A stretch of 64,000 bases of DNA from Nitrosomonas sp. (lineage in GTDB: Bacteria > Pseudomonadota > Gammaproteobacteria > Burkholderiales > Nitrosomonadaceae). The stretch lies in contig JAMXAG010000012.1 of the NCBI GenBank assembly GCA_024281675.1, forward strand, positions 1-64,000, written 5' to 3'. Of this stretch, positions 27,081 through 61,969 are shown in pieces. The notes below the pieces were generated by a model that saw only the letters and a list, made by a program, of their open reading frames with translations, was not told the origin of the DNA and made no database searches. Made by a program: the position numbers and the translations under genes. The first letter of the stretch is position 1, and each line of letters starts with the position of its first letter.

Positions 27081-27869
27081 ATGATAAATCAGATATTTAA
27101 AGTTATTTTTCTGGCTTTCTGTATAGGGTATGCCGCAAGTTTATTTTCAAGTTCTACTCATTGGAGTCATGATGAACAGAAACATTGGGGCGCCATTCGA
27201 GATAATACTCAAACAGAAGATCCTTTGATGTTTCCTTATGCGGTTTGTAGTATTGGCAAGCACCAATCTCCCGTCAATTTATCGGAAGAAAATCATCGAG
27301 AAATTCTCAACAAATTGATTTTTAATTACCCTGTTGATGAACCAACTTATTTTAATAGCGGCCACGGAATACAAGTCAATTTTTCGGATGATTACAAAGG
27401 TCATCTGAAAATCGGTAATGAAGTTTACCCATTAATACAATTTCATTTTCATGAACCAAGCGAGCATGTCGTAGGAGAGAAGCAATATCCCGCAGAATTG
27501 CATTTTGTTCATATTCGTGATGATGGGAAAATTGCGGTTGTTGGGGTACTTCTAGATGAAGGGGAAGAAAATGCCAGTTTTCAGAAAGTGTTAGATAACA
27601 CACCAAGAGAAGAAGGTGGTCAAAATGATCAGTCTAGTGCGGTGATTAATCCTAAATTATTAATGCCAAAAACTAATTGGAAACACTATACGCTTGCTGG
27701 TTCGCTTACGACGCCACCTTGTAGTGAAGGAGTAGAGTGGTTGGTTCTTTCCGAACCCATTACTATTTCGCGCGAACAATTAACACAATTGAGAAATTTT
27801 TATGCTGGTAATGCACGGCATGTTCAGGCCCTCAACGGTCGTTCAGTTTCACGTAAAATAGGGCAGTAA
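27081..27869 (+). CDS. alpha-class carbonic anhydrase, exported
   Basis: The enzyme interconverts CO2 and bicarbonate. The 262-aa protein has an N-terminal export signal or anchor (IFKVIFLAFCIGYAASLF). The alpha-CA core includes CSIGKHQSPVNL, the zinc histidines in QFHFHEPSEH (His122, His124) and ELHFVH (His141), and SLTTPPCSEGVEWLVL. Cys56 and the cysteine of PPCSEG are placed to form the conserved disulfide. The location should be periplasmic. For an autotroph such as an ammonia oxidiser this fits inorganic-carbon supply, but that is inference. Confidence 0.93.
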   Translation: MINQIFKVIFLAFCIGYAASLFSSSTHWSHDEQKHWGAIRDNTQTEDPLMFPYAVCSIGKHQSPVNLSEENHREILNKLIFNYPVDEPTYFNSGHGIQVNFSDDYKGHLKIGNEVYPLIQFHFHEPSEHVVGEKQYPAELHFVHIRDDGKIAVVGVLLDEGEENASFQKVLDNTPREEGGQNDQSSAVINPKLLMPKTNWKHYTLAGSLTTPPCSEGVEWLVLSEPITISREQLTQLRNFYAGNARHVQALNGRSVSRKIGQ

Positions 27870-29139: not shown

Positions 29140-29210
29140 GTTTTGATTATTTTTATCACAACCTATCGAGATTATATTTAGTGCAATAATTCCTGAAATT
29201 TTTCTGACAT

Positions 29211-29282
29211 GCCAAGGAGCGCTGCAACGGTTTTTCCCGTGAGGCTTGGTATCGATGATATCGTTACAACGGCGCTCGTTCA
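29211..29282 (+). promoter_or_regulatory. S-adenosylhomocysteine (SAH) riboswitch
   Basis: The sequence shows the SAH-riboswitch layout. CCAAG (29212-29216) pairs with CTTGG (29245-29249), ACGG with CCGT closes an inner hairpin, and GAGCGC (29217-29222) pairs with GCGCTC (29272-29277). The conserved GAGCGCTGCAAC and AACGGCGCTC strings are present. It lies 20 bases before ahcY, whose product removes SAH, so it is expected to raise AhcY expression when SAH accumulates. Confidence 0.92.
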
Positions 29283-29302
29283 TATTGTTAAGGAGATTAA
29301 TT

Positions 29303-54994: not shown

Positions 54995-55341
54995 TTATTC
55001 CAATTCTTTTTTAAAACAGCATTAATAATCAATCCCATCCGACAATGCTGCGCATAGTTTCCTGGTTTAATTCAAAGCTTTTTAGCGCGCTTTCCAGATG
55101 TATCTCAAGTGCATCCAGACGGGGTATGTTAACTTCTCCCAAAACGCCGTACACTTTTTGTTCGGGTACTAAAACGTGCCAAAAATTAAACCAATTGTTG
55201 CCAATTGGGCTATTGCAGGCCGATTGTAATATAGCTACTGTTTAAACATTGAATGACTGTTGAATAGCAGGCTTCAATGGTTTGCCACTCAATTGTTTAA
55301 GAAAACTCACATAGGCATTAATTTCTTCTCGAATCACTGTA
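54995..55341 (-). pseudogene. interrupted gene remnant left of the IS nest
   Basis: On the minus strand, 55022-55240 is open for about 70 codons and encodes a protein-like sequence (NNWFNFWHVLVPEQKVYGVL, then IPRLDALEIHLESALKSFEL and a SIVGWD end). In the same frame, a TAA separates an upstream piece (REEINAYVSFLKQLSGKPLK) that runs into the left tip of the IS nest. I do not recognise the family. It is probably the tail of a gene broken when element A inserted; the rest is not found on the other side. Confidence 0.4.
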
Positions 55342-55412
55342 AAGACTCCTGCACAACCTCCCCTACCATTGCAATAACCCACTAAAATAGGGGCAGACAG
55401 TTGGAGCAAAAG

Positions 55413-55892
55413 ATGCAGATGAGTTTTGGAGCACTGGAATTGGCATAGCGATTGAAGCGAGATAATGTTCTGATGAAGATTGATGCGCTGATTGAGTGGG
55501 AGGAGTTACGTCCGAAGCTTACGGGTTTATACAAGCGCGAGTTATCGCATGGTGGAGGACAGGAACCGTTTGATGTGTTGTTGATGTTCAAAGCGATCCT
55601 GCTGGGTCAGTGGCATAGTTTATCGGATGCCGCGTTGGAGCAAGCGCTGTGTGTACGGATTGATTTTCTACAATTTTGTGGATTGTCCTTGTCGGACGCG
55701 ATACCGGACGAAACCACTTTGTGCCGGTTCCGTAACCGTCTGGTAATCAACGACCGACTAGATGGTTTGCTAGGTTCTATTAATGAGCAGCTTCAATCAC
55801 ACGGATTGATGATCAAGGGTGCGACGGGAGCGGTAATTGATGCCACGCTGATTGAGTCAGCGGCACGCCCTAGAAAGACCATCACACTGGAG
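55413..55892 (+). pseudogene. element A transposase, 5' half
   Basis: This is the first 160 codons of the transposase, nearly identical to copy 1 (RPKLTGLYKRELSHGGGQEP, PDETTLCRFRNRLVINDRLD, first catalytic aspartate in AVIDATLIESAA). Codon 12 is a nonsense TAG (55446-55448) where copy 1 has GAG, so this copy was dead or weak independently of the later insertion. The frame breaks exactly at TGGAG (55888-55892), which is repeated at 59919-59923 where the 3' half resumes. Confidence 0.85.
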
Positions 55893-55975
55893 GAGAACTT
55901 TGCACGGCTAGAGTCATTTTCAGGTGTGGATGATGATATAATAACGTTTCCAATCATACTGTTGAGTTAATTGAT

Positions 55976-56906
55976 ATGAGTTTTTCAGAGTTTGATGTCA
56001 CCCGCCGCACTCGCAAAGGAAACTTTCTCAATCAAATGGATTACCTGATTGATTGGACACCGATAGAAAAAGCAATCGCTGAACATTACGCCCCCACATT
56101 TGATGCCGCAGGCCGTCCTGCCTATTCCGGTCTGCTGCTGTTCAAAATGTTGCTGACAGGAATCTGGCACGGTGGACTCAGTGATGAATCAGTTGAAGAC
56201 ATGGCTAACGCGAATCTGCACGTGATGCGGTTTTTGGGCCTGAGTCTGGAAGACGATGTTCCGGATCATTCGGTACTGTCTCGTTTCAGGACACGATTAA
56301 CACAAGCACATGCATGGGATGGTTTGCTGGAGAAGATCAATCAACAGATCCAGGAGCACGACATCATGGTGACTCAGGGCTGTCATGTCGACGCCAGTAT
56401 CACGCACAGCCCGCGTAAGCCAAAAACCAGGCCATCGTATGAAGTGGTTGCTGACCGAGAGGATCGTGACGATGAAGAAGATGCGAAATCAGCCATGCGC
56501 GTTATTAAAGTGATTCAGCCCGGTGTAGATACAGAAGCACGCTGGGTTAAGAAAGGTGGTAAATCTGTTTTTGGCTATAAACAGCATACACTGGTTGATA
56601 ACAATGGGTTGGTGTTAGCTGTTGAAACTACTGCTGCCAATCAACATGACAGCAAACCACTGCTGACTTTGCTAGATAAAGTTGGAATCGAGCCGGGTAC
56701 TCGCATTCATGCGGACAAAGCTTACTGTAGTCAGAAACACCGCGAAGCCTTGAAAGAACTTGGCATTAAAAATGGCATCCAGGATAAGGCAGTGAAGAAC
56801 AGGCCGCTGACACAGCGGCAATCGCAACGCAATAGCTTAATTTCCAAAGCCCGGTATGTTGTGGAGCGAACCTTTGGTAGCCAAGCACGCTGGTTTGGAG
56901 TCAAGG
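55976..56906 (+). pseudogene. element B transposase, 5' part (split by element C)
   Basis: This is an IS5-family transposase (FSEFDVTRRTRKGNFLNQMD, LFKMLLTGIWHGGLSDESVE, catalytic D in GCHVDASITHSP, D in IHADKAYCSQKH, E in ARYVVERTFGSQARWFG). The frame is intact until element C at 56907. Joined to 59650-59768 it reads through as a 349-aa protein, so it was intact before that insertion. The frame as it stands now runs on into element C to 57010 with an unrelated tail. Confidence 0.9.
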
Positions 56907-56970
56907 AGAAGTGGCCTCACTTGATTGGACAATTTTTTCCATATCTTAAGTGGAAACCTTGCGTTAATGC

Positions 56971-57258
56971 CTACCCTGCTTTTTGCATTGTAGGCAGGTT
57001 ATCGAAGTAGAACTCATTTGGCGTTTTGTCGTCAAGCGCGGTGTGAGGTCTATTTTGGTTGTAGAACATGAAATATTTTTCTAAGCCTTGTTTTGCATCA
57101 CATACGCTGTCGTAGGCGTGCAGATATACCTCTTCGTATTTGACGCTCTTCCAAAGCCGTTCGACAAACACATTGTCACGCCAACTGCCCTTGCCATCCA
57201 TACTGATCTGGATACCGTTATACTTCAACAACCCGGTGAATTCCAAGCTGGTAAATTG
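56971..57258 (-). pseudogene. element C OrfB, 3' part
   Basis: This is the C-terminal rve-integrase portion: QFTSLEFTGLLKYNGIQISM, SWRDNVFVERLWKSVKYEEV with the catalytic glutamate of the DDE triad, and YNQNRPHTALDDKTPNEFYF. It continues in frame from the 5' part at 58711-59256 once the IS30 element and one TTG are removed. The combined OrfB is 276 aa. Confidence 0.88.
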
Positions 57259-58710
57259 GGTGGATTCAACCGATCGTTGCAACAGTGGGTTGTTGAATAG
57301 ATTTCATATAATCGTTTAGTGCTTCTGCAGGTGTTTTCCAACCAAGTGTTTTCCGGGGCCTGCTATTCAGCGTATGGGCTACTGCCTGGATCTCTTGAGT
57401 ACTCCAACGAGATAGATCGGTGCCTTTTGGGAAGTATTGCCGCAGAAGCCCGTTGGTATTCTCATTCGTGCCGCGTTGCCATGGGCTATTAGGGTCGGCA
57501 AAAAACACCTTAACTCCAGATTCGATGGTAAATCGGGCGTGATCCGATAGCTCCTTTCCACGATCCCAAGTTAATGATTGCCACAGCTGGGCGGGCAAGC
57601 TCGTCACTGTTTTTTTCAGTGCATTAGTCATTGTAACAGCTCCGTAGCCCGCAAGCGCGGGACCATTCTTCGTTCTGGGAGTCAGCCCATAGCCTTCCTC
57701 GCGAGGCAGATGGATAAGCATGGTAAATCGGCTTGAGCGCTCGACCAATGTCCCAATTGCAGATCGATTCAGACCGATGATCAAGTCACCTTCCCAATGC
57801 CCAGGTAAGGCGCGATCTTCCGCCTCAGCAGGGCGGCTGGAGATCATGACATTCTCGTTGACATGAGCCCATGCTTTAGCCTGCGCCCTGGCTCTCGGTA
57901 CGCGCAACGCTCGCCCCGTGCGCAGACAACTCACCAACTCGCGCTTGAGAGCACCGCGACCTTGAATGTAGAGAGCCTGATAAATGGCTTCGTGAGAAAT
58001 GCGCATGGATTTGTCCTCTGGAAAGTCAATCTGTAGCCGATTGGCAATCTGTTCAGGCGACCAGCCTTTGACCCAATTACGGTCACCACGATGTGGCTTA
58101 TTTCGTCCTTTGAACGGTGCCTGTCGAGGTCCCTCAATTTTACGCCCATCAGCGTCATAAACCTTTCCTTCCAAGCAGTCTTGTACATATTGGCGCAGTC
58201 GAGGGTTGGTCACCAGTTTCGCCGCTTTCGGTCTCCTGGCAACCAATTCCGCTTTCCACTGCGCGACTGAAGCGCGATATTCGAGCCGACCGCTACGAGT
58301 GGCAGCATTGCGAGTCAGCTCCCGTGAAATTGTCGACGGACTTCGTCCAAGACGGCGAGCAATCTCACGCACGCCAATACTTTGTGCCCGGAGCAGTCCA
58401 ATCTCTTCTCGTTCAGCGAATGACAAATATCTTCCGGATATGTGATTAGACATGAATAATGGCATCCCGCCTCGATAACGGAACCAGCGGGTACCTACCG
58501 CTGACGACACGCCAACAGCCTCTGCCGCTTTCTCGCTTGTTATCCCGGTTGCAATCTGCTCCCAAAATAGCCGCTCAATCTCACCGCGAAGTGACGGCGC
58601 ACCTGGCGAGCGCATCGTCCATCTCCCCGTCAACTTTTGCATCCATCCTGCTGGTCGCCCCATAAACACCTCCATGATCAAAAGTGTTGCGACAACCGGT
58701 TGAATCCACC
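57259..58710 (-). mobile_element. element D (IS30 family), innermost and youngest insertion
   Basis: The tips GGTGGATTCAACCG (57259) and CGGTTGAATCCACC (ending 58710) are perfect 14-bp inverted repeats, with partial matching further in. TTG flanks both sides (57256-57258 and 58711-58713). The element is 1,452 bp and looks complete. Confidence 0.92.
57266..58675 (-). CDS. IS30-family transposase, apparently intact
   Basis: The 469-aa product from the ATG at 58673-58675 keeps everything inside the element. It shows the IS30 N-terminal helix-turn-helix (YLSFAEREEIGLLRAQSIGV, REIARRLGRSPSTISRELTR), WSPEQIANRLQIDFP, and the DDE core: D in LPGHWEGDLIIGLNRSAIGT, D in LTWDRGKELSDH, E in WQRGTNENTNGLLRQYFPKG. 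The N-terminus is longer than in IS30 itself but occurs in relatives. A later ATG at 58663 is an alternative start. The stop lies inside the terminal repeat. Confidence 0.92.
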   Translation of the reverse strand: MEVFMGRPAGWMQKLTGRWTMRSPGAPSLRGEIERLFWEQIATGITSEKAAEAVGVSSAVGTRWFRYRGGMPLFMSNHISGRYLSFAEREEIGLLRAQSIGVREIARRLGRSPSTISRELTRNAATRSGRLEYRASVAQWKAELVARRPKAAKLVTNPRLRQYVQDCLEGKVYDADGRKIEGPRQAPFKGRNKPHRGDRNWVKGWSPEQIANRLQIDFPEDKSMRISHEAIYQALYIQGRGALKRELVSCLRTGRALRVPRARAQAKAWAHVNENVMISSRPAEAEDRALPGHWEGDLIIGLNRSAIGTLVERSSRFTMLIHLPREEGYGLTPRTKNGPALAGYGAVTMTNALKKTVTSLPAQLWQSLTWDRGKELSDHARFTIESGVKVFFADPNSPWQRGTNENTNGLLRQYFPKGTDLSRWSTQEIQAVAHTLNSRPRKTLGWKTPAEALNDYMKSIQQPTVATIG

Positions 58711-59256
58711 TTGACAACCTTGGTCAGTATTGAAGATATCCGGCTTGCCATGCTTGTTTATGGCTTCTTGTACAGCTTCAATGCAGAAGTCGGTAGTCAA
58801 GGTGTTAGACAATCGCCATGACAGCACTCGACGGCTTGCCCAGTCGATCACGGCGAACAGATAAACGAAACCGCGCTTCATTGGGATGTAAGTGATATCT
58901 GCTGCCCAGACATGGTTTGAGCGGGTGATGGACAAATTCCGCAACAGATACGGGTAGACTGGATGCGCCTGATACCGCTTGCTGGTGCTGGGCTTGCGGT
59001 AGATTGCGTGTATTCCCATTCGCTTCATCAGCGTAGATACACGACGCCGACCGAATAAACTTCCTTCGCGTTTGAGCATTTTGGAAAGCATTCTGGCGCC
59101 TGCAAAGGGATGGTTCAGATGTAATTCGTCTATTCGGCGCATCAGTACAAGCTCCTCCGCTGATAGCGGAACCGGTCGGTAGTATGCTGTTGAGCGTGCC
59201 ACATCCAGTAGCCGACATTGCTTCACCAGCGACAGTGCGTGAGTTCGGTTTATCAT
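58711..59256 (-). pseudogene. element C OrfB, 5' part (split by IS30)
   Basis: Exactly 182 codons remain: the HTH_21 region (NHPFAGARMLSKMLKREGSL), the first catalytic aspartate in HVWAADITYIPMKRGFVYLF, and the second in DIFNTDQG, where IS30 inserted. The currently open frame runs a few codons into IS30. The ATG overlaps the orfA stop by four bases (ATGA), so OrfB was made by coupling or by the frameshift usual in IS3. Confidence 0.88.
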
Positions 59257-59555
59257 CGCTTTGCGCTCAACAATCCCGACTTGATGAGCGCGCCTTCTAA
59301 AAAATCATTCTCCAACGTGAGCTGTCCAATCTTGGCGTGAAGTATCTTGAGATCAGGCGCGGCGGCCTTTGCTTTTGAATTACTCCCGAATACATCGATT
59401 GCAGATTCCTGTAATTGCTGCTTCCATTCCGAAATCTGGTTCGGATGCACATCAAATTGTTCAGCTAACTCAGCTAGTGTCTTATCACCCTTGATCGCAG
59501 CTATTGCCACCTTGGCTTTGAATCCCGCTGCGTGATTCCTTCTCGTCCTTCTCAT
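59253..59555 (-). CDS. element C OrfA (IS3 family helix-turn-helix protein)
   Basis: The 100-aa OrfA is intact: RRTRRNHAAGFKAKVAIAAI, the helix-turn-helix DKTLAELAEQFDVHPNQISE, then a leucine-zipper-like segment (DLKILHAKIGQLTLENDFLE). OrfA binds the terminal repeats; with OrfB broken by IS30 it cannot support transposition and could act only as a repressor. Confidence 0.88.
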   Translation of the reverse strand: MRRTRRNHAAGFKAKVAIAAIKGDKTLAELAEQFDVHPNQISEWKQQLQESAIDVFGSNSKAKAAAPDLKILHAKIGQLTLENDFLEGALIKSGLLSAKR

Positions 59556-59649
59556 ACTCTCGCTCCTTTTTTGCCGCGAACTTCACGGATTTAGATTGAG
59601 CAAGATTACCACTTATCCGACTGTCCGAATTTGCGAGGCCACTTCTAGG

Positions 59650-59768
59650 TGCTGCGTTACCGGGGCAAAGCCAAAGCACATGCCTGGCATATTTTACAAG
59701 CCATGGCATACAACCTGAAAAGGTTGCCCAGATTGTATGTTAATAGGCAGATACAATTGCAATCATAG
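59650..59768 (+). pseudogene. element B transposase, 3' end
   Basis: After the AGG duplication the sequence continues the element B frame: LRYRGKAKAHAWHILQAMAY, then NLKRLPRLYVN, ending at TAG 59766-59768. These are the usual last residues of IS5-type transposases. From 59769 to 59918 only the non-coding right end of element B is present. Confidence 0.88.
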
Positions 59769-59923
59769 GACAAATGCGCATTCTGAGCCGATAATGATCA
59801 ATGAAAGTGATTGTTCGCGTGATTTCAGCAAGGAAATGACTAAAAAATATCGCGATACTCACAAAAAAATCAGAAATTGTAACGAATTTGATAATTCGTT
59901 GAATTTTGCAAAGGTCTCTGGAG

Positions 59924-60346
59924 GTAGATACCGAAGGTAAGGCTGTTCAGTTTGAAGATGGCAGTCAGCCTGGAATCAGCTGTACCGAAGAACAAAGTGC
60001 GGGTCCGGATGCGACTTGGCTGAAGAAAGGCAAGAAGTCGCAGTTTGGCTACCGCAGTTACCTGGTGGTGGACGCACAAGACGGCTATGTGCGCGGGGTT
60101 CACACTACTCCTGCCAACCAGAGTGAAATGATGCATTTCGAAGCAGCTATCGATGGTGTGCATATCGAGGCGAATCGGGTGTATGCCGACAAAGGATCCG
60201 CCAGCAATGCCAATCGGCAGTTTCTAAGAAAGCAAAAGATCAAGAGCGCAATCATGCATCGCGCGTACAAGAACAAACCACTCTCGTCACGCCAGAAGCT
60301 GGCGAATCAATTGATCAACAAAAAACGCTATATTGTCGAACAGTGT
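59924..60346 (+). pseudogene. element A transposase, 3' part
   Basis: It resumes in frame from codon 161: VDTEGKAVQFEDGSQPG, QFGYRSYLVVDAQDGYVRGV, the catalytic aspartate in RVYADKGSASNANRQFLRKQ, and YIVEQC with the catalytic glutamate. The IS3 fragment at 60347 then cuts it. Unlike copy 1, this half has no frameshift, so the two copies decayed separately. Confidence 0.88.
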
Positions 60347-60820
60347 TGAATCGCCCCGGATTTTCCGGAGACTGCTTGTCTTGAGTCAAGTTGCATCAGC
60401 TGACTTTTCCCGATTGCGATAATACGCCTTTTCAAATTCTGCCGGTGGAACATATCCGATTGCATCCAGCAGTCTTCGATTGTTAAACCAATCCACCCAT
60501 TCCAATGTAGCAAATTCTACTTCTTCGATACTACGCCAAGGACCGCGATGCCGTATGACTTCGGTCTTGTACAAACCATTGATGGTCTCGGCCATGGCAT
60601 TGTCATAAGAATCTCCGATGCTGCCGACGGAGGCGTCAATACTTGTCTGCGCCAAACGTTCCGTATAGCGAATCGACAAATATTGGCCACCTCGATCTGA
60701 GTGAGCAATTAGCCCCTTGTCCGGATGTTTACTTGCAGTTGCACGAAATAATGCCTGTATAACCAGTCTCTTTGTCATTCTCTCATTCATGGCATAGCCT
60801 ACCAGTTCGCCATTAAATAG
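60347..60820 (-). mobile_element. element E, truncated IS3-family insertion
   Basis: The plus-strand left tip TGAATCGCCCCGGATTTTCC is a typical IS3 end. On the minus strand the C-terminal half of an OrfB is intact: ELVGYAMNERMTKRLVIQAL, GLIAHSDRGGQYLSIRYTER, SYDNAMAETINGLYKTEVIR, and WVDWFNNRRLLDAIGYVPPA, with stop at 60386. The N-terminal half, orfA and the other tip are gone; at 60820 the sequence switches to the right tip of element A. A deletion evidently removed both the rest of E and about 270 bases of A. Confidence 0.82.
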
Positions 60821-60855
60821 TGGTAGGGGAGGTTGTGCAGGAGTCTTTAGCATGA

Positions 60856-61145
60856 TATTTCTGGTCAAATTGGTGATTAAAAATACTAAGACGTAGCAGT
60901 ACAATTCATCAATCGAATTTGTTTGGAACAGGTATTTTACGCTGCACCACAGGCGCTCGACAAACACATTACCCCTCTGGCTCCTTTGCCATCCATGCTG
61001 ATATTAATACTGTGATCCTTCAATACATTGGTAAAGGCCTCGCTGGTATACTGTCGGTTATTGAATATATCCGGTGTCCCGTAACGGTAAATCGCATCCT
61101 CAAGTGTATCAACACAAAAACTGGCATCCAGGCTCGATTGCATTC
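60856..61145 (-). pseudogene. element F, IS3-family OrfB remnant
   Basis: Two minus-strand pieces in different frames, YGTPDIFNNRQYTSEAFTNV with HSINISMDGKGA, then NVFVERLWCSVKYLFQTNSI, are the DDE core of an IS3 transposase related to element C but diverged. A frameshift near 60975 and missing ends make it a fossil. It ends about 45 bases before the deacetylase stop codon. Confidence 0.8.
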
Positions 61146-61189
61146 ATGCCAAAGTCCGTGATGCTGGTAACGTTCGTGCCAAAGTTGAT

Positions 61190-61969
61190 TTACCTGGTAA
61201 TCGGCCGAAACATCGCTCTACCAAGTGCATGTTTGATGGGAAGAATTTCAATTCCACTTGCAGCAACAGCTGCAACAACTGCGTACAAAAGTTCCGGTGT
61301 ACAACCGTAAGGCGACGGAAAATCAATCACATCGTGCGTATTAAATATAATCCAGCCATTGCGTACTTTTGTTTCTTTTATCAGAGCATCGATAGAATTT
61401 TTGTCAAAATTAGCATCTAAATTGAAGCATTTGAGCTGAGACAACTCTAACAGTTTAGTATTGATCCCCGCTTGTGTACCTCGGCAAACAGAGAATTTTC
61501 TACTCAAGAACCGTTTGGCACCAATGCTGACATTTCCCTGTGGATATGCAAACGACGTCATAATCACATCACCTAGCAAATGTTTAACAAACTCAGCATT
61601 TCGATCGATGCTATCTAATAATTCACAATTATTTTGCTGTGAAACCCTTTTATGATTAAATGTATGACAACCAATCTCGTGCCCCTTTGTATGCGCGGCA
61701 ACAATGTCATTAAGTTCATAGTAACTTACCCCAGTCATCACTTCAGTATCTGGAAATTTGTTTAAGCTCTCTGGAGAAAACGCATGTGCCACAAAATAGG
61801 TTCCGCGCACACCAAAACTTTCTAAAATGGGTGCTCCATTGATCCATGCCGTATGAGGGAAATCGTCAAAAGTAAATGATGCAACCGGTGCGGAAAGCCT
61901 TGAAAATACAGGCTTGGCTGGCCAAGCATTCGAAATACGACGAATTGCGGATGTAATGTATCGGTTCAA
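61190..61969 (-). CDS. polysaccharide deacetylase (NodB-type)
   Basis: This 259-aa carbohydrate esterase 4-like protein has the metal/catalytic motif ASFTFDDFPHTAW, the metal histidines in GHEIGCHTFNHKRVS, SFAYPQGNVS, and the late IIFNTHDV box. These enzymes remove N- or O-acetyl groups from glycans. It starts with TTG; a strong AGGAGGAGATCAG upstream and only 11 bases from the HAD-gene stop show tight coupling. There is no clear signal peptide. Confidence 0.85.
   Translation of the reverse strand: MNRYITSAIRRISNAWPAKPVFSRLSAPVASFTFDDFPHTAWINGAPILESFGVRGTYFVAHAFSPESLNKFPDTEVMTGVSYYELNDIVAAHTKGHEIGCHTFNHKRVSQQNNCELLDSIDRNAEFVKHLLGDVIMTSFAYPQGNVSIGAKRFLSRKFSVCRGTQAGINTKLLELSQLKCFNLDANFDKNSIDALIKETKVRNGWIIFNTHDVIDFPSPYGCTPELLYAVVAAVAASGIEILPIKHALGRAMFRPITR

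Follow-up and report, generated by a model that had tools for sequence, protein, structure and literature searches.

A lineage of IS30-family insertion sequences probably selects, by DNA sequence, the segment of the IS3 transposase gene (OrfB) that encodes its active site, and is probably carried further in trans inside the interrupted IS3. This is the reading we prefer for the innermost layer of an insertion sequence nest in Nitrosomonas sp., with the rest of the nest being ordinary, and we give it a probability of about 0.87. Copies of this lineage recur at one position of IS3 transposase genes, with target duplications, and many of these insertions are independent events. We hold the targeting of IS3 transposase genes by this lineage with high confidence.

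As for the mechanism, the IS30 transposase would pick the OrfB segment encoding the second catalytic aspartate and the G-x-Q behind it. Insertion would take place at the Q codon, and the 3-bp target duplication would be this codon itself, in most cases CAA or CAG. In OrfB, the E of the D-D-(35)-E triad would be severed from the second D, and the IS3 transposase should die. IS30 would gain an address that is dispensable, multi-copy and mobile, and the interrupted IS3, with IS30 inside, is probably moved in trans by the transposase of a sibling IS3.

The nest lies in the window, by which we mean the whole analysed stretch of 64,000 nucleotides, and its host is a draft genome of 2.81 Mb in 29 contigs, assigned to Nitrosomonas like 10 of the 11 named relatives of the sulfotransferase gene next to the nest. 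A preliminary description had reported IS30 within an IS3 element (C), within an IS5 element (B), within an IS5-type element (A). For IS30, C and B, both coordinates and duplications (TTG, AGG and TGGAG) proved right to the base (Table 1). Excision in silico, run by script, restored the lengths predicted for OrfB (276 aa) and the B transposase (349 aa), and gave an A frame that is open across LE|VDTE.

Table 1. Features of the insertion sequence nest, in window coordinates.
Feature	Position	Strand	Basis
IS5-type remnant A, left part	55342..55892	+	about 96% to further genome copies
IS5-type element B, split by C	55893..59918	+	ends, TGGAG duplication, NCBIfam transpos_IS5_4
IS3-family element C, IS30 within OrfB	56907..59646	-	inverted repeats, AGG duplication, intact sibling
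TTG duplication, left copy (CAA = Q codon on coding strand)	57256..57258	.	sequence
IS30-family element, innermost layer	57259..58710	-	26-bp inverted repeats, TTG on both sides, 100% identical copy elsewhere
IS30 transposase gene (459 aa as used, plus stop; provisional start)	57266..58645	-	NCBIfam transpos_IS30
TTG duplication, right copy	58711..58713	.	sequence
Target upstream of the insertion point, D-Q-G-C-Q codons in the OrfB of C	58711..58725	-	
Remnant A, middle part, 3' end lost	59924..60346	+	NCBIfam IS5_4, 90.5 bits (fragment), below cut-off 140
IS3 element D, end fragment, right border approximate	60347..60690	-	93.5% to C23:51568-51907
IS3 element E, internal fragment, 140 bp	60681..60820	-	99.3% to C17:68447-68586
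Inverted exact copy of A left end	60821..60849	-	100% to 55340-55368 reversed; unlike right end of intact copies

The IS30 element is 1452 bp long. Its ends are of the IS30 kind, with 26-bp terminal inverted repeats (imperfect, 88% complementary) and a 3-bp target duplication. The transposase reaches 247.7 bits against NCBIfam NF033563 (transpos_IS30, cut-off 80), which places it in the IS30 family; in Pfam, HTH_38 is above its cut-off and rve below. Element C (2740 bp) has the inverted repeats and 3-bp duplication of an IS3, and the OrfB of its intact sibling scores 257.8 bits against NF033516 (cut-off 160). In the case of element B (4026 bp), the 310-aa part of the transposase before C has 212 bits against NF033581 (transpos_IS5_4, cut-off 140). 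Its inverted repeats and its duplication, TGGAG, are those of an IS5 element, and 5-bp duplications are also seen in two relatives, at C23 and C24. These matches place C in the IS3 family and B in the IS5 family.

Empty sites were found for all inserts. The region C27:175517-176801 is C without IS30, with 5 differences in 1285 bases and an intact 276-aa OrfB. Genome G016 contains a B that lacks C, its two parts overlapping by 3 bp, and G000 has at least 14 copies of A without B. The nested insertions are real in the three inner layers, and the nest in itself is ordinary.

A misassembly, in which misjoined repeats made the nest and its IS3 context, is very improbable. The flanks of each inner insert come from one parent element, in register and with the correct duplications, and the same arrangement recurs in plasmid records, mostly titled complete sequence. 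On the other hand, the genome is a draft, and two of its contigs (C14 and C29) end within IS30, with matches of 77 bases each (in C29 including 3 flank bases), so the IS30 repeat did break the assembly elsewhere. Misassembly was rejected as the main account.

The insertion order had been read as A, B, C and then IS30. Identity to the nearest sibling grows inwards and fits this order, with 96-97% for A, 98.5-99.0% for B (measured against an internally deleted copy), 99.6% for C and 100% for IS30. The order is nevertheless not proven, since an inner element may have arrived together with its host element, as the IS3::IS30 composite described below suggests.

Within C, IS30 sits after F-N-T-D-Q-G-C-Q of OrfB on the coding strand, and the duplicated CAA is the Q codon. 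The gene is split right after D-Q-G-C-Q, four residues beyond the second catalytic aspartate. In the intact sibling, the E of V-E-R-L-W lies 36 residues beyond that D, which we take to be the D-35-E spacing typical of IS3 active sites. The other full IS30 copy (C23:50117-51568, 100% identical) follows H-H-S-D-R-G-S-Q of a different IS3, with CAG duplicated. The two full copies in this genome thus interrupt different IS3 elements at the homologous codon. Contig C29 ends in an IS30 start (27581-27657), which comes after H-H-S-D-R-G-N-Q, with weak HMM support. Contig C14 begins in IS30 (C14:1-77), and the profile search found no recognisable OrfB at this junction, which counts against a simple rule.

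The recurrence was surveyed in relatives with at least 60% protein identity, from beta-, gamma- and alphaproteobacteria and from actinobacteria. Flanks were taken from plasmid records and further copies there, four IMG/VR loci and one more genome. Each flank was compared in six frames with a profile of ten intact IS3 OrfBs (303 positions), with a motif pattern as fall-back. The 98 loci at this identity gave 58 distinct junction pairs and from these 56 sites, as one pair repeats the C23 copy with a shorter flank and the group L150/L213 is without a script-found end.

At 48 of the 56 distinct machine-delimited sites, IS30 is at the IS3 OrfB codon (48 of 57 when L150, read by eye, is included). 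These are 33 simple sites with both OrfB halves, 5 where the two halves are alike, 4 where one end out of two is at the codon, and 6 of the 7 one-ended sites. At L098, L103, L105, L107 and L112, IS30 lies between two upstream or two downstream OrfB halves; sites with two like halves are what one would expect if interrupted IS3 elements had undergone recombination or inversion with each other. The nine of 57 off the codon are L104, L180, L110, L113, L159, L205, L202, the one-ended L204 and L150. In L150 a broken gene hid the left end from the script, and by eye this end is off the motif. L202 and L204 were counted as negative, yet look IS3-like by eye. With 8 of 56 sites (9 of 57) elsewhere, the choice is strong, not absolute.

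Among the 16 plasmid records in which 80% or more of the element is covered, 13 are on target. The survey took in 30 of the 113 plasmid records matching at 1e-150, leaving out five partial lineage copies without a locus, and two (H63 and H96) of its ten actinobacterial records were picked with "IS3" visible in the annotation. Five loci of 57-62% identity (L220 and L226-L229) were fetched before their flanks were seen, and four of the five are on target, counting L227 with one side read by eye and L220 with one end found; L228 failed. An exact search of IMG/VR with the terminal repeat returned five stretches: L221 at the motif, L224 (the L150 contig) and L225 not at the motif, and L222 and L223, which are the contigs of L149 and L148. 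At order level, the IS30 was found in 2 of 399 genomes, own included, by DNA search, and the protein search agrees.

In terms of INDEPENDENCE and control, the 33 simple sites represent 29 OrfB lineages at 80% protein identity. Their OrfBs have a median pairwise identity of 38.6% (452 comparable pairs), and IS30 is in the same orientation in 18 and in the opposite one in 15. These values bear on the idea that a single old IS3::IS30 composite was spread by IS3 transposition and horizontal transfer, so that the shared position would be one event. A Streptomyces plasmid does contain one composite three times, and an IS3 half is common to some of the sites, meaning that not all 56 are independent. 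The number of OrfB lineages in the simple sites, both orientations of IS30 and the different duplicated codons nevertheless leave this idea little chance, and one ancestral composite was rejected as the main cause in view of the divergent targets.

Furthermore, an OrfB edge at the junction was found by profile search in none of 33 more distant IS30 loci (37-50% identity). For these controls near-copies were kept, and the scan ran over 900 bases outward from the aligned part rather than from delimited ends, less at contig ends. In control L185, an OrfB half starting from profile position 209 lies 482 bases from the control gene, directly after a right terminal repeat of the target-specific lineage. 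As it adjoins the terminal repeat of this lineage, the half fits the pattern; L185 was kept among the negatives because its own IS30 is elsewhere than that site. A tree of 60 rows unites all 37 lineage members that were sampled in a single group (support 93/93). The off-target copies are scattered within this group, and two of them share their protein with on-target copies.

The controls also bear on survivorship, in which IS30 would insert anywhere and persist only in dispensable DNA, with nests forming passively in tolerated zones. Insertion sequences and intergenic DNA are dispensable, and the counterpart of the nest in relative G024 also has an IS3-like remnant by eye. Purging, however, cannot put 33 simple insertions at one codon of OrfBs as divergent as these, and none of the 33 distant loci shows the pattern. 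We consider survivorship strongly disfavoured and hardly credible as an explanation.

The target itself was aligned over the 30 sites with exact duplications, with position 0 as the first base after the duplicated codon. Invariant bases are A (positions -20, -14 and -2), G (-15 and -8) and T (0). The G at -9 and the C at -3 are nearly invariant, and there is variation at most third positions of codons. Conservation of the protein motif could account for most of these bases, so invariance by itself is no proof that DNA is being read. The off-target sites were scored out of sample with the target matrix, over 2703 nearby positions and taking the better of two orientations. For the seven two-ended ones, 0, 9, 7, 114, 12, 20 and 0 positions score as high as the insertion point. 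As these insertion points score high, what the element reads seems to be DNA, which happens to encode the motif, and we infer that the transposase itself chooses its target at the DNA level. As a guess, its specificity may lie in an N-terminal helix-turn-helix. The single-sequence structure prediction of the transposase has a pLDDT of 35, and an N-terminal extension, of different sequence, is also present in several control transposases.

As for carriage inside IS3, three places of a Streptomyces globisporus plasmid carry the same IS3::IS30 composite; the copies are 99.9% alike across some 2880 bp and share the mismatched junction GAG/CAA. Two of them are bounded by exact IS3 ends and a duplication of AAC or GTT, and occupy one and the same site within a repeated sequence, in opposite orientations. 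The third is elsewhere and has lost its right end. This suggests that IS30 rides inside its IS3 victim. With moderate confidence, the composite would fit movement of an interrupted IS3 in trans, although it is a single case and plain duplication could also have produced it.

The outer layer presents a different picture. The preliminary description had counted four precise layers, with A as a clean and complete element whose right end was at 60821-60847. Neither point held. The 14 delimited A copies in G000 measure 1254-1277 bp from the left end and terminate in GGTTGTGCAGAGGTCTT, with an exact 5-bp duplication in 9 of 14. In the window, A stops at 60346, and its 3' part is replaced by the two IS3 fragments D and E, which overlap by a stretch common to both and were absent from that description. 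What had been taken for the right end is an inverted copy of the left end, without a target duplication: the pentamers flanking the window's A, CTGTA and TAGCA, differ from each other. The reading of A as a complete outer element was rejected, as neither its ends nor a duplication fit; it lacks its own right end and the 5-bp duplication of a complete IS5 element. Given the cut in A and the two IS3 fragments, five insertion sequences contribute to the nest, with three clean insertions and A as an eroded remnant. C in B, B in A and the two IS3 fragments would be an ordinary build-up of insertions in a non-coding spot beside an EPS locus.

The inverted copy at the right edge (60821-60849, against 55340-55368) takes in two flanking bases and carries the variant CCCCTACCA, which was not found in the other A left ends compared. 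Because of this variant, it may come from the window's own A copy. More scraps resembling other places of the genome are found at 60848-61197, e.g. one similar to C11:73039-73122, together with a C-like IS3 remnant at 60932-61074; the mosaic thus continues past the end first given for the nest. To the left, a stretch of about 125 bp (54995-55120) has one more copy in the genome (C28, 88%) and is found at several places in G020 and G009.

The spot had also been called a tolerated landing zone, with a comparison of relatives at the same site as the proposed check. Both flanking genes were found in a single relative, G024, in which 319 bp of dissimilar sequence stand in place of the 6160 in the window. 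Within the 319 bp an IS3-like remnant can be read by eye, so the spot is tolerant of insertions. Tolerance as the cause of the innermost layer is not supported. As the lineage recurs at one codon, that layer reflects sequence-directed targeting of IS3 rather than a tolerated zone. The deacetylase gene on the right side of the spot is present in 2 of 85 genomes of the genus, own included. Downstream of the sulfotransferase homologue, no consistent insertion sequence content was seen in 10 relatives (ORFs by eye). Elsewhere in the window, positions 29208-29284 match a SAH riboswitch with 59.4 bits (cut-off 37).

Target-specific insertion sequences are already known, and the IS3 OrfB codon as a target appears to be undescribed in the open-access literature. 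Elements of the IS1111 group have an IS110-type enzyme. IS5075 and IS4321 belong to this group and insert in Tn21-type ends, termed a safe harbour ensuring dissemination (PMC8269217). Like the IS30 lineage, they are target-specific and have another transposon as their address (PMC8269217). They differ in that their target is the end of a Tn3-family transposon, whereas here an element of IS30 type targets the codon of a transposase active site. The lineage is therefore not of the IS4321/IS5075 type (IS110-type recombinase, Tn21-type ends): its transposase is of IS30 type, its target is IS3 OrfB, and only the outcome is alike.

The IS30 of E. coli targets hot spots that are nearly palindromic, or the inverted repeats of its own kind, with attack at a distance of 2 bp (PMC9333248). 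Both have an IS30-type transposase and a marked target preference; unlike E. coli IS30, the lineage targets IS3 OrfB and duplicates 3 bp. In Leifsonia xyli subsp. cynodontis, ISLxc3 is 1511 bp long and has the duplication NTG at two copies, and its authors report that a conserved target site was not detected (PMC2516522). Its terminal repeat, GGCGGATTCTAGTGGTCGTTGCAACA, is very similar to that of the lineage (PMC2516522), and on this resemblance ISLxc3 is probably a member. Lastly, some insertion sequences are described as inserting sequence-specifically in REP sequences, which are repeated and dispensable (PMC1525189). There the target is an extragenic palindrome and not a gene (PMC1525189). 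A description of the IS3 OrfB active site as a target for IS30 was not found in searches of open-access PMC papers.

A wider reading is that the IS30 lineage as a whole, which extends over Proteobacteria and Actinobacteria, is a hyperparasite. It would live on IS3 elements, home to their active-site DNA, neutralise them and spread within the dead IS3s by means of sibling IS3 transposases, and it may act as a brake on IS3. Part of this reading is that IS3 could hardly alter the active-site stretch without killing itself. We see about even odds for it, and the role of IS30 as a brake on IS3 is speculative.

The lineage clearly exemplifies a transposon addressed to the coding sequence of the catalytic site in another transposon family. 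It makes testable the choice of a single-codon target by a DDE transposase, the limiting of insertion sequence copy number by parasites of parasites, and the travel of interrupted insertion sequences in trans. If true, the lineage would be a natural, sequence-directed inactivator of IS3 elements.
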